Shown: positions 159 to 25,034 of the stretch, piece after piece | Layout: each line of letters opens with the position of its first letter | How positions within the stretch are numbered: the first letter of the stretch is position 1 | NCBI RefSeq assembly: GCF_025685415.1 | Contig: NZ_JAGSYB010000001.1 | Location: 1,054,001-1,118,000 of the forward strand | Direction: 5' to 3' | Source of the DNA: Terriglobus aquaticus | GTDB lineage: Bacteria; Acidobacteriota; Terriglobia; Terriglobales; Acidobacteriaceae | DNA: 64,000 bases | Notes under the pieces: model-generated | Told to the model about the DNA's origin: nothing | Seen by the model: the letters and a program-made list of their open reading frames with translations, nothing else | Databases searched by the model: none | Translations under genes and position numbers: made by a program

Positions 159-764
159 CTAGCGCACCACCGTTGCGTCTTCCATGTGCGTCTGCTTCTG
201 CTTCGGCCACAGGAGTTCGATCAGAATCAGCACCGCGCCTACCGTGATACAGCTATCGGCCACGTTGAAATCGGGCCAGTGATAGTGCACGATGTGGACC
301 TCAAGAAAGTCGATCACGTAGTGCAGCTTCATGCGGTCGTACAGGTTGCCGATCGCTCCCCCGAGAATAAGAGCAAGCCCTACCGCCGCCGGCGAGAAGA
401 CTCGGCCCATGCGCCAGAGCATCGCAAATACGATTACCGCTGCCACCAGGGAGAACACCACCAGCGACCAGCGCACCGCCTCCGGCGATGCGGACTCGGC
501 AAACATGCTGAACGCTGCGCCAAAGTTGAGCACGTGCGTGATGCGAAAGACGTGCGGGATCACCGTGACGGCCTGACCGGTCTGCAGGTGGGCGACAACG
601 TAAAGCTTCGTCAGGCGGTCGACGAGCACCGCGATCAGGCTCAGCAGCAGTAGCCACGGTCGTGCGTCGCGCTGGACCAGGTACGTCGCACCGGTGCGGT
701 CGGTCTCAACATGCGTCGCGCCCGGATCCAGCAGAACGCGTTCCTGGTTGCGCTCGTCGATCAT
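159..764 (-). CDS. lspA: Lipoprotein signal peptidase (signal peptidase II)
   Basis: Inner-membrane aspartyl protease that cleaves prolipoprotein signal peptides ahead of the lipid-modified cysteine. The 201-residue protein has four hydrophobic segments (about residues 37-53, 98-116, 125-140 and 172-186) and both catalytic aspartates in family context: D143 in GNLYDRM and D170 in FNVADS. A roughly 35-residue polar N-terminal extension precedes the first helix, longer than usual. The ATG overlaps the ileS stop in an ATGA, so translation is probably coupled to ileS. The ileS-lspA neighbourhood is common in bacteria. Several candidate substrates lie in this window (lipoproteins at 10360, 50238 and 62140, and the internal lipobox-like sites at 19164 and 43452). 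Confidence 0.95.
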   Translation of the reverse strand: MIDERNQERVLLDPGATHVETDRTGATYLVQRDARPWLLLLSLIAVLVDRLTKLYVVAHLQTGQAVTVIPHVFRITHVLNFGAAFSMFAESASPEAVRWSLVVFSLVAAVIVFAMLWRMGRVFSPAAVGLALILGGAIGNLYDRMKLHYVIDFLEVHIVHYHWPDFNVADSCITVGAVLILIELLWPKQKQTHMEDATVVR

Positions 765-19163: not shown

Positions 19164-22100
19164 CTATTGTGGTGAGTTGGTGATGGTGAGCGTGATGGGA
19201 ACCGACTGCTGCACAGTCACGCCCGTGGTGCTCGCAGCGGAAATGGTGAACTGGTAGGTTCCTGCCGCGGCGTAGCGAATACGCGAGTCACCATGCGTGC
19301 CGCTCCCACAGCCCGAACTCATGAGCAGGGCACACAGTCCAATCGACAGCAGCAGTCCCGCGCCCCAACGCCTGCGACGCAGACCCGCCAGCAACAGCAC
19401 CGGTGTACTGCACAGCACGGCTGCCCGCCAATCGGGGCGACGGCTCGCGGCCGTGTTCACCGCGGTCACGGTTGTGATGGTTGCCGTCGCGTTGACCGTG
19501 CCGTTGATCAGCGTGACCGTGGACGGATTGATGGAGCAAGCCGTGTACTGGACGATTGCCTTTGGGGTGCAGGTGAGCGCTACGGCGCCGGTGAAGCCAT
19601 TCGTCGGCGTAACCGCTAGAGCGTAGTTCGCGGCAATGCCATAGGGCACAGTTGCTGAACCACTTGACGCGCCATTGACCGTGAGGGTGAAGCTTCCACC
19701 CTGCAGGCCGTTGCCGGTCAACGGGACCTGCAGCGGAGAGGAAGGATCGGTGCTGGAGACGGTCAGCGTGCCGGTGCGAGCGCCAGGCTGGCTGGGCGTA
19801 AACGTCACATTGATGGAGCAGGACGAACCCGCGGTCAACGTCACCGGTCCGCAGGTAGACGTGCCCGTGAAGTCGCCGGACGAGATACCGATCTGTAATC
19901 CATTGACGTCCGTGGCGCTGGTATTTGTCAGCGTCAGCGCTAACGTTTGAGTGTTCCCGATCAGGATGTTTCCGAAGCTGAGCCCCGAGGGCGTTGCCAC
20001 GAGCTGCGGCTGTACACCGACGCCGCTGAGGGTGACGGTGAGTGCCAGATTTGTTGCCGAATTGCTGATCGAAAGCACGCCCGTTCGCGTCCCGGTACGC
20101 GACGGCGTGAACGTCACCGGGAGGACGCAGGACGCCCCTGCTGCAATGGTGCCGCCGCTGGCGCACACGGCGCCTGCCGCTGACGACGACGCCAGCGCGA
20201 AATCGCCGGTGACCGTGATCGGACCCAGAGTGACAGCGCTGGAACCAGTGTTAGTAAACGTCGCGACCTGGGCCGCGCTCGTGCGGGACAGCAGAACTCT
20301 TCCAAAATCAAGGGCGCTGGGACTTAGCGAGACGGAGGCGGAGGTACCTGTGCCGATCAGGCTCACGTACTCCAACGCGTTGGAAGCATTGCTTTGGATC
20401 TCGAGAGCTGCCGAGCGGGTGCCAGTCCCCTGTGGAGTGAAGGCCACCTGGATCTGGCACGATGCGCGAACGGGAAGCGCGCCACAACCGTTCGTGGCGG
20501 TGAAGTCAGAGCTGGTGACGACGCCAGAGATGACCAGGTCTACGGTGCCGGTGTTTGTGACCGTGACGGCCTGGGCTGCCGAAGCGTTTCCGACCGTTCC
20601 GCTGGCAAAGGTCAACGCGCCCTGAGACGTGGTGAGCACTGCGAGCGGCGCCGCGGACGCTGGACTGTTGCTCTGCACCGGTACCGTACGCCCTGCAAGG
20701 TCGACCAGAAGCGGGCTATTTTCCGCGTCAGACTCTAGTGTCAGAACTCCGGTCTGGCTTTGCGACCCAGCGTTGCCGCTAATCGTGGTCTGTGCGTTGG
20801 GCGCGTACTTGACCACCACGGCACAGCTAGCCGAGGGCGCCAACGTAGCGCCGCAAGTGCTGGTCGCCTGGAAGGGGAACTCCGCCCGAATGCGGCGGAC
20901 CGTGATCTTCTCCGAGGTGCTGAGATTGACGAGCGTCAGATTTTGCGACGCCGTCTGACCGGAAGCCACCTGGCCGAAATCGATCACGCCAGTAGCGGTG
21001 AAACTGCCTGTCACACCCAGGGTTCCCGAACCGACTCCGTATCCTTCCAGGTATGCCAGGCCGTTCACCGTGGCAGTGCCGTCCGTCGGCTGACCCTGGA
21101 TGAAGAGCGTTCCGGTCGCGTCTGCGTTCAGCAGGGGAGCATAGGCGACTGTGACCGTGCACGATCCGCCCGGTGCCAGACCGGCGCAGTTCGTTGCCGT
21201 GATCGGGAACTGCCGCGGCGCTTCCAGCGAGAGCGTGAGGGACTTGCCGGAAAGATTGTTGACGCGGAACACCCGGGTTGCCGAAACGCTTGCGGTGGCC
21301 AGCGCTCCGTAGTTCACCGCGATGTCCTCTCCGGGCACAATCTCCAGCCCGGCGCTTTCTCCCGTGTATAGAGCCTGAACGGAAAGGGTGTATTGCGTGG
21401 TCTGCGCTGCGCCACCCGGTGCGGTAGTCACCGGCACCGTGAGCAGACCGCTGGCCAGCGAAGTGCCAGGGGTATACGTGACGGTCAGCGTGCACTGCGT
21501 ACCCGGCTGCAGAGAGGTGCAGGTGCTGCTGGTGGTGAAGTGCGAGTCACTCACGGTGACATTGCCAACCGTCGCCGCCACATTGCCGGTGTTGGTCAGA
21601 GTGATGACCTGCTGCGTTGCCTGAATGCCGGGAACGTTCCGGAAGAGCAGGGAGGCCGGCTGAAACGACAGGCCAGGGTTCACGTCGCCGTAACCCGTCA
21701 GGTTGGAGCTGACAGGCCCGGCTGACGTGTTGAAGTTCACACTTCCACTCCGCGGGCCGGTTGTGGTGGGTGCGAACTGGACCGCCAGCGTGCAGCTTTC
21801 TCCAGCCTGCAGCGTGCCGCCGCAGGCAGTGCCGCCGGTGGCGGTGGAGCTTGCTCCGAAGTCACCCGAAAAGCCAGCGGTTCCCGTCGAGATTGCGCTG
21901 GAGGTGGCGTTGGTCAGATTGAAGAACTCCGCGCCGGTGGAACTACCGACTGGGACCGATCCGAAATCCTGTGCCGCTGGGGTCAGCAAGACGCCCGAGG
22001 GCGGGATGCCGGTACCGGACAGCGCGACGGTCTGCGCCGCGCCGCCCTGCGTCGAGGTGATGCTTAGGTTCGCCGTTTGCGGTCCGGCGGATGCGGGCAT

Positions 22101-25034
22101 GAACTGCACGCCCAGGTAGCAGCTACCGCAGCTTCCAGTCAGGTTCTGCTGGAACTGGGTGCGGTCGGGCGTGCCGTAGCCGTAGCCCTGATCCTCCACC
22201 AGCAGAACGCGAAAATCGGAGCTGCTGGAAGCAATGCTGAGGCTTGCAAAGGGCTGCGAAAGCCGGAACCACTGCACCGCGGGTGTTTGAAGCGGGACCT
22301 GGCCGAAGTTGATCAGACCACTCCCGGGCAGGAAGCCGGTCGCAGTGCCTTGCAGCGTCACGTATACCGGGCTGCTGCTACCTGCCGTTACGCTGAGCAA
22401 ACCTTGGCGCAGCCCAGCATCGCTCGGTGTGAAGTGGAGTGTGACGACGCACGAAGCTCCGCCGGCCAGGGTAGACGGGCAGGCACTGGCGGCGAAATCA
22501 CCGCTGACCGCGACCGCAAGCGCAAACGGGGTCGCACCCGTGTTCTGGACCGTGACACTCTGCGTTTCGGTCGAGACCGTGGTGACCACCACCGGCTGCG
22601 CAAACGTGACGGTTGTCGCGCTGACCGACAGGTTCGGGTTGACCGCCGAACCGTTCACGCTGGGCTGCGGCACGGTTTGACCGTCGATCAGAACCGAGTA
22701 GCCATCTACCGTGATGGTGGTCGCGTCCGCTGACGGCACGGTCTGCGACAGGTAGGTCACGGAGATCTGGCAGACGGATTGCGGCGACAGGGTCGAAGGG
22801 CAGCCGTCCGTTAGATGGAAGGGCAGTCCGGGCGAGAGCGAAACCGCCGTGTGGGCCTGCGCCACGTCGCTGCCATTGGACAGATACAGGTATCGCGGCG
22901 AATGGAGTCCGCCCGCGAAGACACGTCCGAAGCCGAGGTGGGTAGCGGAGACGGTGAGCGGGGAAGCCTGCGTGTATCCAGTCAACGTCAGTTCACGCGG
23001 TCCAACGACCCAGGTGGCCCGGGCGCTCCCGTCGTCCGACGCACTGGAACTGGCGGCAAGCTGAAGCGTAATGGTGCACGACGCTCCGGCTGGAAGGGTG
23101 AAATGCACTCCATCTCCAACCGGCGTGCAGGTCGAGCTGCTCTGGCTCACGGTGAAAAGCGTGCTGGTGAGGCCTGCCTGTGAGGCGAAGGTCTGCGGCG
23201 AGCCAGTCAGATTCGTCACGGTCAGCGTTCGCTGGCGAGGTGTGGTCGCGGCGGTGCTGCCGAAATCCAGCTCCTTGGGGACGACGCTCAGGGCGTCCGC
23301 AGTGAGCGTGTTTGCAGGCAGAGCTGCAGTTGCGGTTGTAGCGTTGCCCGCTGAAACCGTGATGGAGCCCGGGCCGGAGCCCGCAAGAGCCACATCACAT
23401 TCCGAACCCGCCGGCAGGGAGGCGCCACAAGTGGTGCTGCTGACGGTGAAGCCTGCGGCCGTGACCTGGAGACTGACGGCGGCCGTCGCCCCTGCATTGC
23501 GCACGGTGATGTTGGGCAGATCGTCCACTGAGAGCAGAAGCGACGCATCGCTCGCCGAGTCCAGCCGTGCCAGCACGGCCGCGCCACCGTCGCATCCGCT
23601 GCCGTTGCAGGTCGTCGGCGGCAGGGCATCGCGTACCGTCGAGGGGAGAGCCGCGGTGGTCGCCGGTCCTAACGAAACGTCGTAACGTTCGGTCGGCCGA
23701 AGGGCGCTGCTCAGGGTTGGGGCGATACCACCGGCGAACACTGCGGTACCGTCGCTCGCGGTGAGAACGCCACCGGCTGAGACGGGCACACTGCTGAAGC
23801 CAGGCTCCTGCACGGGAACGCCTCCGACGCGGGCCGTGCGCTGCACCTGGCCACTGCCGTTGCCCACCAGCAGGAAGCCGGAGCCCTCCGCCTGCAACGC
23901 CGACAAGGGCAGAAGAGGCGGAACATTCGCCGACGCAGAGGCTACCGCGGCCACGAAGCCGCTTCCGCTGGGTGCCACGATCGCCGTATCGCCGGGCGCG
24001 AGCAGGGTGGAGCTGGTGACCGCCGATCCATCCTGCGCAATTCTCAGCGCCGCCTGGTAGGTCAGACTGGCTGCCACCGGCGCGTTCACCACCGTCAGCG
24101 GAAACAAGCCTGCAGCAATGTTGCCGCCCACCAGAATGCTGCTGGTGCCGCTGTCAGTAGCCGCGGACGTCAGGCCATTGCCCGGGATGTAAGTAGAAAA
24201 TACGAAGCCGTCGCCGGCAGGGGTGAGCTTTGTCAGAAAGCCCGACACGGGCGAACGGGCGTCGGTCAGCAGATCGGGGATGAGGGCGTTGAGAGTAGGG
24301 AAGCCGCTGGCCGTCGTTGAGCCAACGATGTAGGCGTTCCCCGAAGCATCCAGGGCAACGCCGGCCGGCGAGGTGTCTCCATTCGCGCCGCTCAGATACG
24401 TGCTGTAGCGCAGCGTCCCGTCGGTCGTGCTGAAGCTCTGCACGAATCCGTTGCCAAAGCTGCCGGGCAGTGGCTGCTGCTGGATTCCGTTCGGAGTAAC
24501 CGGCAGCGTCGCCGCAAAGATTGAGCCGGTCACGACTACCTGGGTGGACGAAGCGTCGACCGCGGTTACCGCCATTCGGCCGCTGCCCAGAAAGGTAAGC
24601 CACTGCTCAGTGAGCGCGGGCGTGAACTTCGCCAGGAACGAGTTGGTGGTGGTATCCGCTCGGTTCGGGTAGCTGGTTCCGGCGGTGCCGGTTACAGAAC
24701 CGTTGGACAGGGAAGTTCCCGCCACGTACACGTTTCCAGCGGCATCCAGCGCCAACGCCACGCCATGGTCTCCGGCCTGACCCAGATCCGTTTCGGCCAG
24801 GGTGGTCGACGCGGTCGGATCCATCTTGACTAGGCGGAGTCCATCGCCAGCTTCGACCAATGTGTACAGGTTCCCAGCTGCGTCGGCTTTTAGTCCGATA
24901 AAGCGACCCTGTCCATTGACGGATCGCAGCCCGACACGGGACACCGACTGCGCAGACGCGCCGGTGGCGCCGGTCAGCAGGGCGAGCAACAGAAGTGGGA
25001 GGCGAAATGGTCGCGGCAGTCTCAATGGCATCAC
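19164..25034 (-). CDS. Giant secreted ASH / choice-of-anchor D repeat protein with internal C-terminal TM-lipobox module
   Basis: A 1956-residue exported protein. The Sec signal peptide is at about 1-28 (ends GASAQS). Residues 30-450 form a propeller-like region (AADAAGNLYT, ALDAAGNVYVAG, ALDASGNAYIVGST), an SBBP-type pattern. From about 580 to 1770 there are some eleven ASH/choice-of-anchor D repeats of about 100 residues with the pattern LDFG..., VTNTG, GDF, CG...L..G.SC...V.F.P..TG.R. A final Ig-like region is interrupted by two hydrophobic helices (about 1871-1885 and 1890-1908) around RRRR (1886-1889), then SGC with Cys at 1909, and a 48-residue tail ending LTLTI. The start is GTG at 25034 or ATG at 25031. 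Transcribed alone. Function unknown, probably cell-envelope adhesion or scaffolding. Confidence 0.85.
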   Translation of the reverse strand: MMPLRLPRPFRLPLLLLALLTGATGASAQSVSRVGLRSVNGQGRFIGLKADAAGNLYTLVEAGDGLRLVKMDPTASTTLAETDLGQAGDHGVALALDAAGNVYVAGTSLSNGSVTGTAGTSYPNRADTTTNSFLAKFTPALTEQWLTFLGSGRMAVTAVDASSTQVVVTGSIFAATLPVTPNGIQQQPLPGSFGNGFVQSFSTTDGTLRYSTYLSGANGDTSPAGVALDASGNAYIVGSTTASGFPTLNALIPDLLTDARSPVSGFLTKLTPAGDGFVFSTYIPGNGLTSAATDSGTSSILVGGNIAAGLFPLTVVNAPVAASLTYQAALRIAQDGSAVTSSTLLAPGDTAIVAPSGSGFVAAVASASANVPPLLPLSALQAEGSGFLLVGNGSGQVQRTARVGGVPVQEPGFSSVPVSAGGVLTASDGTAVFAGGIAPTLSSALRPTERYDVSLGPATTAALPSTVRDALPPTTCNGSGCDGGAAVLARLDSASDASLLLSVDDLPNITVRNAGATAAVSLQVTAAGFTVSSTTCGASLPAGSECDVALAGSGPGSITVSAGNATTATAALPANTLTADALSVVPKELDFGSTAATTPRQRTLTVTNLTGSPQTFASQAGLTSTLFTVSQSSSTCTPVGDGVHFTLPAGASCTITLQLAASSSASDDGSARATWVVGPRELTLTGYTQASPLTVSATHLGFGRVFAGGLHSPRYLYLSNGSDVAQAHTAVSLSPGLPFHLTDGCPSTLSPQSVCQISVTYLSQTVPSADATTITVDGYSVLIDGQTVPQPSVNGSAVNPNLSVSATTVTFAQPVVVTTVSTETQSVTVQNTGATPFALAVAVSGDFAASACPSTLAGGASCVVTLHFTPSDAGLRQGLLSVTAGSSSPVYVTLQGTATGFLPGSGLINFGQVPLQTPAVQWFRLSQPFASLSIASSSSDFRVLLVEDQGYGYGTPDRTQFQQNLTGSCGSCYLGVQFMPASAGPQTANLSITSTQGGAAQTVALSGTGIPPSGVLLTPAAQDFGSVPVGSSTGAEFFNLTNATSSAISTGTAGFSGDFGASSTATGGTACGGTLQAGESCTLAVQFAPTTTGPRSGSVNFNTSAGPVSSNLTGYGDVNPGLSFQPASLLFRNVPGIQATQQVITLTNTGNVAATVGNVTVSDSHFTTSSTCTSLQPGTQCTLTVTYTPGTSLASGLLTVPVTTAPGGAAQTTQYTLSVQALYTGESAGLEIVPGEDIAVNYGALATASVSATRVFRVNNLSGKSLTLSLEAPRQFPITATNCAGLAPGGSCTVTVAYAPLLNADATGTLFIQGQPTDGTATVNGLAYLEGYGVGSGTLGVTGSFTATGVIDFGQVASGQTASQNLTLVNLSTSEKITVRRIRAEFPFQATSTCGATLAPSASCAVVVKYAPNAQTTISGNAGSQSQTGVLTLESDAENSPLLVDLAGRTVPVQSNSPASAAPLAVLTTSQGALTFASGTVGNASAAQAVTVTNTGTVDLVISGVVTSSDFTATNGCGALPVRASCQIQVAFTPQGTGTRSAALEIQSNASNALEYVSLIGTGTSASVSLSPSALDFGRVLLSRTSAAQVATFTNTGSSAVTLGPITVTGDFALASSSAAGAVCASGGTIAAGASCVLPVTFTPSRTGTRTGVLSISNSATNLALTVTLSGVGVQPQLVATPSGLSFGNILIGNTQTLALTLTNTSATDVNGLQIGISSGDFTGTSTCGPVTLTAGSSCSINVTFTPSQPGARTGTLTVSSTDPSSPLQVPLTGNGLQGGSFTLTVNGASSGSATVPYGIAANYALAVTPTNGFTGAVALTCTPKAIVQYTACSINPSTVTLINGTVNATATITTVTAVNTAASRRPDWRAAVLCSTPVLLLAGLRRRRWGAGLLLSIGLCALLMSSGCGSGTHGDSRIRYAAAGTYQFTISAASTTGVTVQQSVPITLTITNSPQ
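19167..19445 (-). other. TM hairpin / Arg loop / internal lipobox module interrupting an Ig-like domain (copy A)
   Basis: Coding segment for about the last 93 residues of the giant repeat protein. Order: hydrophobic AAVLCSTPVLLLAGL, RRRR, hydrophobic WGAGLLLSIGLCALLM, SSGC, a 15-residue linker, then AGTYQFTISA and VPITLTITNS. The last two strands look like the closing strands of an Ig-like domain whose earlier strands (FTGAVALTC, CSINPSTVTL) lie before the insertion. The part from RRRR to Cys has the n-region, h-region and lipobox order of a lipoprotein signal peptide. The same order occurs at 43455-43712. Confidence 0.7.
19700..23295 (-). repeat. Array of about eleven ASH/choice-of-anchor D protein repeats
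   Basis: Repeated coding units of about 300 bases within the giant secreted protein. Repeat starts recognisable in order: KELDFGS, THLGFGR, TTVTFAQ, GLINFGQ, AAQDFGS, ASLLFRN, EDIAVNYG, GVIDFGQ, QGALTFAS, SALDFGR and SGLSFGN. Most units carry two cysteines spaced 10-14 residues apart (for example STCGATLAPSASC), probably a disulfide. The units differ enough that the array is old rather than a recent tandem expansion. Confidence 0.75.

Follow-up and report, generated by a model that had tools for sequence, protein, structure and literature searches.

An internal lipoprotein-type signal may split the last Ig-like domain of large acidobacterial proteins

Close to the COOH end of a 1956-residue, probably exported protein of Terriglobus aquaticus, two hydrophobic helices and an arginine loop form a hairpin that ends in a lipoprotein-type cysteine. 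According to structural models, the hairpin interrupts the last Ig-like domain, the closing strands of which lie beyond the cysteine. The best reading of the region is a type II (lipoprotein) signal placed inside the chain. We assign a probability of about 0.6 to the view that Lgt and LspA process this internal lipobox and that the tail is held in the fold of the cut domain. The gene is located in the window, i.e., the whole 64,000-nucleotide stretch of DNA analysed, and its features are listed in Table 1.

The NH2 terminus is generally regarded as the point at which lipoproteins are anchored. Many large exported proteins of the Acidobacteria appear to carry a near-terminal hairpin and a lipoprotein-type cysteine inside the last Ig-like domain. 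If the proposed reading is correct, lipid anchoring at the COOH terminus would be achieved by enzymes that most bacteria own, with a domain folding back across the cut, and signal-peptide predictors that inspect the NH2 terminus only would miss several proteins per genome in the family of the window.

A barely described family of COOH-terminal regions

The 1956-residue protein is composed of a signal peptide, SBBP-type repeats (PF06739, 41.8 bits, above the cut-off), a series of choice-of-anchor D Ig-like domains (11 stretches of the protein body match NF012200, with a score of 341.4 bits and a cut-off of 45) and the interrupted Ig-like domain. The order helix-RRRR-helix-SSGC-strand and its coordinates, as given in the original prediction, agree with the ORF translation. 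No Pfam model matches the last 200 residues at E ≤1. By contrast with the claim that such a hairpin anchor is unrecorded, the region is already covered by the NCBIfam 20.0 model NF058595.1 (invert_tail, "lipo-invert putative C-terminal anchoring domain-containing protein"). The protein matches positions 2–112 of the 113 of this profile with 37.2 bits (E 3e-9), just above the cut-off of 37, and its locus reaches 39 bits in the genome search; from its sequence, the COOH terminus is thus a member of the lipo-invert family. Region and order of elements are the same as in NF058595, and a second window protein, of 770 residues, scores 46.4 bits. The anchor role of the family is putative, also in the wording of NCBI. 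What we argue here beyond that one-line description is that an Ig-like domain is interrupted by the hairpin and completed by the tail. The kind of COOH terminus is therefore known but barely described, and the present analysis adds to it the interruption of the domain and a specific proposed mechanism.

Table 1. Positions in the window of the gene for the 1956-residue protein, its parts and related genes.
Feature	Residues	Position	Strand	Basis
Gene of the 1956-residue protein		19164..25034	-	ORF and profile matches
NH2-terminal signal peptide (MMPLRLPRPFRLPLLLLALLTGATGASA)	about 1-28	24951..25034	-	by eye, sequence only
Last Ig-like domain, first part, before the insert	1780-1858	19461..19697	-	model strands E2-8 to E77-79 (177-residue model)
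First membrane helix (AAVLCSTPVLLLAGL)	1871-1885	19380..19424	-	sequence; model helix 90-104, moderate confidence
RRRR loop, expected at the cytoplasmic side	1886-1889	19368..19379	-	sequence; loop charge in the family
Second helix and lipobox (WGAGLLLSIGLCALLMSSG), ending LLMSSG	1890-1908	19311..19367	-	sequence; model helix 112-127, moderate confidence
Lipobox-type Cys1909, expected lipidation site, with the cut expected directly before it	1909	19308..19310	-	invariant column; lipobox statistics
47 residues after Cys: short linker and two closing Ig-like strands		19167..19307	-	model
Closing strand 1, GTYQFTISAAS	1925-1935	19230-19262	-	model strand 146-156
Closing strand 2, QSVPITLTITN	1942-1952	19179-19211	-	model strand 163-173
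LspA (lipoprotein signal peptidase), expected cutting enzyme		210..641	-	PF01252, C1:1054210-1054641, E 4.8e-41
Second protein with the same type of COOH terminus, 770 residues		43452..45764	-	NF058595, 46.4 bits, residues 682-768; C1:1097461-1097766

Searches of the literature, with most subscription journals outside their scope, found no paper naming "lipo-invert" or "invert tail", and among the titles listed for "C-terminal lipobox" and related phrases, none concerns such an anchor. The lipobox dealt with in PMC12636315 is N-terminal.

The genome of the window has 15 NF058595 matches at E ≤0.01, 11 of which are above the cut-off, and the translations of 13 of the 15 are tails with the order helix-Arg-helix-Cys-strand. 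The other two, both below the threshold at 18 bits, resemble N-terminal lipoproteins, with the signal peptide inside the matched part. None of 14 unrelated control genomes has a match above the cut-off; weak matches occur in 11 of the 14 when E is relaxed to 0.01. In a second sample of the family, 58 of 60 genomes (57 of 59 genera) exceed the cut-off, and copy number at E ≤1e-7 ranges from 1 to 19 per genome, with none in G297 and G317. The proteome search that had been proposed as a check on recurrence was therefore answered in the affirmative by the 13 tails of the own genome, the 58 of 60 family genomes and the 0 of 14 controls. A freak sequence or sequencing artefact is rejected, since further genes of the own genome and other members of the family have the same order. 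Genome G297 carries eight matches to the Ig-like domain profile built without the hairpin (see below), yet no lipo-invert tail at E ≤1e-7.

Of the 297 genomes in the phylum sample, 36 exceed the NF058595 cut-off. At E ≤1e-6, 42 genomes are matched, 31 from the family of the window (f1) and 11 from outside it with one match each, copy numbers per genome in this sample being lower bounds, as no more than 14 candidates were scored in each; no f1 genome is found among the no-match genomes listed. Outside the family of the window, occurrence in the phylum is thus sporadic. Two genomes of another family (G216 and G272, f42) have one strong copy each, at loci L032 and L036 (E 1e-20 to 1e-22).

A scan of 84,980 genomes, one per species, with a single tail pattern yielded 166 stretches, 23 of which encode relatives: 22 are acidobacterial records and one is from Candidatus Aminicenantes, assigned to the same phylum in GTDB. 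The element order is readable in 22 of the 23, whereas the remaining locus (L061) ends at a contig edge. One locus found by the scan, in Terriglobus albidus, shares an identical stretch of 120 residues with L029, whose genome belongs to the genus of the window. No relatives were detected in viral contigs by tblastn with the tail of the window protein itself.

Lipobox and hairpin features

In the 1956-residue protein, SSGC closes a 19-residue stretch that follows RRRR, so that the lipobox cysteine is preceded by a basic and a hydrophobic stretch. The serine at position -3 is less usual than leucine, the commonest residue there in the family (40/101). The signal is not N-terminal, as the cysteine is residue 1909 of 1956 and a separate NH2-terminal signal peptide is recognized by eye.

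Tails were extracted from 114 loci, giving 110 candidates and 102 distinct rows; removal of L061 (wrong frame, contig end) left 101. Two loci in which hairpin and cysteine are seen by eye (L049 and L062) are outside the 101 rows, and L020 and L021 resemble ordinary lipoproteins. The presence of cysteine in 102/102 extracted tails is by construction, since the extractor demands it, and support for the cysteine therefore comes from two alignments. The cysteine column is invariant in 21/21 rows of the former (loci picked from 51), where it is the sole invariant column, and in 22/22 rows of the latter, both alignments holding loci recovered with Cys-containing queries. The 22 rows comprise the two window proteins and 20 of the 23 loci from the pattern scan; L061, L062 and L069 were omitted before alignment, and the cysteine is present in all three. 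In a realignment of 20 rows (A6), the column is nearly invariant only.

Position -1 is G, A or S in 101/101 tails (G 71, A 21, S 9). As a small control, other cysteines that follow hydrophobic stretches in the same DNA have G, A or S at -1 in at least 8 of 19 cases. The residue after the cysteine is G in 68 tails, S in 18, A in 9, N in 4, and T and L in one each, and is never D. The loop has a net charge between +3 and +7, and its last basic residue precedes the cysteine by 12 to 23 residues (median 17). Loop charge, spacing and lipobox are features of type II signal peptides whose N-terminal side faces the cytoplasm. Taken with the two cysteine columns and the composition of position -1, they uphold the internal type II signal of the original prediction as the best-supported reading. 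No fixed motif was found in or before the first helix of the 101 tails; proline occurs in this helix in 76/101, at no fixed place. A shared FYALWLP-like stretch precedes or begins the first helix in L022, L024, L025, L028, L060 and L068, and may mark a subfamily.

An Ig-like domain interrupted by the hairpin

The last 177 residues of the 1956-residue protein were modelled with AlphaFold2 from 22 sequences (mean pLDDT 82.5, pTM 0.66). Downstream of the cysteine, pLDDT is 91–95 in blocks of residues 141–170 and 80 in the last seven residues (171–177); in the hairpin it is 62–71. A model of the Terriglobus albidus homologue L052 (mean pLDDT 81.1, pTM 0.61) has tail strands at 96–97 and a hairpin at 54–77. 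In both models, the hairpin is predicted with moderate confidence.

In the window model, 96 residues spread over positions 2–173 align to residues 405–502 of the Ig-like domain of a sialidase (2ber; Z 11.8, rmsd 1.9), and 94 residues over positions 22–186 of the L052 model align to 404–502 of the same domain (Z 12.7, rmsd 1.9). Since these alignments span both sides of the hairpin, the parts before and after it would fill one ordinary domain. The models predict a complete Ig-like fold, in which, judging from structural alignments rather than contacts, the tail strands would join the strands that precede the hairpin. PDB matches of both models include pilus chaperones. Foldseek returned no match at E ≤0.001 for the window model and three for the L052 model; weak Foldseek E-values are common for Ig-like folds.

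Natural copies of the domain exist with and without the insert. A domain profile of 102 positions, built without the hairpin, was searched at E ≤1e-10 against 13 genomes of the family and gave 72 matches in 12 of them. Thirty-five of the 72 matches reach position 99 or beyond, and 31 end at positions 70–78; the other six end at 88–93 (five) or at 54 (one). Nine of the 31 matches ending at 70–78 were read, and all nine run into a hairpin. In the 1956-residue protein, the match ends at position 75 of 102. In G300, G303 and G304, the interrupted last copy comes after an uninterrupted one in one and the same protein. The assignment of the tail strands to the domain that precedes the insert, which had been proposed from the sequence, is thus backed by the two models with their PDB matches and by the uninterrupted natural copies.

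In two loci, additional sequence is found between the cysteine and the closing strands. L069 (467-1126) carries an Fn3 domain (PF00041, 31.9 bits) at this point, and L131 (934-1833) carries a stretch that appears Ig-like by eye and has no Pfam match. Such inserted domains fit an extracytoplasmic location of the linker that follows the cysteine.

Possible processing of the COOH terminus

We infer topology, lipidation and cleavage, as well as the holding of the strands after the cut and the membrane in which the protein finally resides. The NH2-terminal signal peptide would drive export of the protein until the first helix halts it, leaving the arginine loop in the cytoplasm. The second helix, which ends in the lipobox, would then re-start export, acting as an internal type II signal peptide. 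Ordinary Lgt would add diacylglycerol to Cys1909, and the single LspA would cut before it. The lipidated tail, 48 residues long including Cys1909, would contribute two closing strands to the Ig-like domain begun before the hairpin. Because these strands complete the domain, the tail would stay joined to the large protein without a peptide bond. In this way, the normal lipoprotein enzymes would create a lipid anchor at the COOH-terminal end, with no dedicated sortase. The full picture, in which about 1–19 proteins per family genome have a COOH-terminal lipid anchor, an LspA cut within the last Ig-like domain and a two-chain domain holding the tail with neither transpeptidase nor sortase, is held more tentatively, at a little below even odds.

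The match to LspA within the window is the only one of the genome at E ≤1e-5. LspA is matched in 145 of 149 genomes of the phylum, and each of 15 family genomes has a single match, which argues that no special LspA is involved; a dedicated LspA paralogue was rejected on these grounds. The signal resembles those of bacterial lipoproteins processed by Lgt and LspA in its basic and hydrophobic stretches, G/A/S-Cys lipobox and G/S-rich linker. It differs from them in being placed about 1900 residues inside the protein, behind another helix, and in that most of the protein lies before the cut.

Comparable COOH-terminal systems differ in other respects. PEP-CTERM/exosortase and GlyGly-CTERM/rhombosortase signals share the hydrophobic helix and the Arg-rich stretch near the COOH terminus. 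In both, the signal ends the protein and is removed by a dedicated protease. Neither protease matches the distribution of lipo-invert tails. Exosortase matches are found in 33 of 99 genomes, including two in the own genome, but are absent from the tail-rich genomes G007 (12–14 tails) and G023 (5–6 tails), so that exosortase was rejected as a necessary partner. Rhombosortase was likewise rejected, as none of 31 family genomes has a match above the cut-off, sub-cut-off rhomboid-like matches being present in 30 of the 31. In chaperone-usher pilins and other split Ig folds, the Ig-like fold is completed by a strand of another chain. Here, in contrast, the completing strands belong to the same gene product, and only cleavage would turn them into a separate chain. 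MYXO-CTERM regions are described in PMC11980579 as COOH-terminal anchors that are cut and have an invariant cysteine proposed to be lipidated, with the order Cys-helix-Arg at the very end, no defined lipobox and an inverted topology. Compared with MYXO-CTERM/myxosortase as portrayed there, the present order is Arg-helix-lipobox Cys, followed by strands. No MYXO-CTERM model was found among the NCBIfam matches of the 1956-residue protein at E ≤1, and its tail is not considered a MYXO-CTERM region, because lipobox and topology are those of a normal LspA substrate.

The original prediction held that the large part would keep one membrane helix after cleavage. Two would stay, as the second helix is part of the signal peptide and lies before the cut, and the lipid therefore looks redundant unless another protease removes the hairpin. 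Such a second cut, made near the first helix by an intramembrane or periplasmic protease in addition to the LspA cut before the cysteine, would discard the hairpin and release the large protein from the inner membrane, held only by the lipidated tail strands and possibly located at the outer membrane or surface. We regard this course of events as unlikely. It would make sense of a lipidated tail without Asp after the cysteine on very large proteins, the Asp rule being known from enterobacteria, and the frequent proline in the first helix is also in its favour. It is opposed by the lack of a fixed motif in or before that helix, and no candidate protease was found in the exosortase and rhombosortase families searched, given the distributions reported above.

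A chain that is never cut appears equally improbable. The domain would dip into the inner membrane and return as a two-helix hairpin anchor, with the cysteine lipidated or free. Membrane holding needs no cut, the predicted Ig-like domain needs the tail in place to be complete, and the sequence facts other than lipobox conservation are explained equally well. What is left unexplained is G/A/S-Cys at the spacing of a type II signal peptide in every extracted tail, along with the status of the cysteine as the sole invariant column of the 21-row alignment. Much less probable still is that the region is the relic of a gene fusion, in which a lipoprotein gene was fused to the end of a gene for an Ig-domain protein, leaving a signal that no longer serves a function. 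Although the second helix and cysteine do resemble lipoprotein signals of the same genome, a relic would be expected to decay, yet tails are widespread in the family sample with the cysteine kept, and of the 37 domain matches falling short of the profile end, 31 stop within positions 70–78.

Processing of an internal type II signal by Lgt and LspA would draw on enzymes encoded in the own genome, which has, next to its one LspA, three Lgt homologues (C1:1047109-1047882, C1:3560352-3561059 and C1:3799740-3800441). An extra Lgt acting as a dedicated enzyme is a lead only, suggested by sequence matches. G023 has one Lgt match and still carries tails. Two or more Lgt homologues are present in 10 of 11 family genomes versus 35 of 108 others in the phylum (Fisher p 2e-4, the genomes not being independent), and in 7 of the 11 family genomes, the best Lgt has a lower Pfam score than the best of the other matched genomes.
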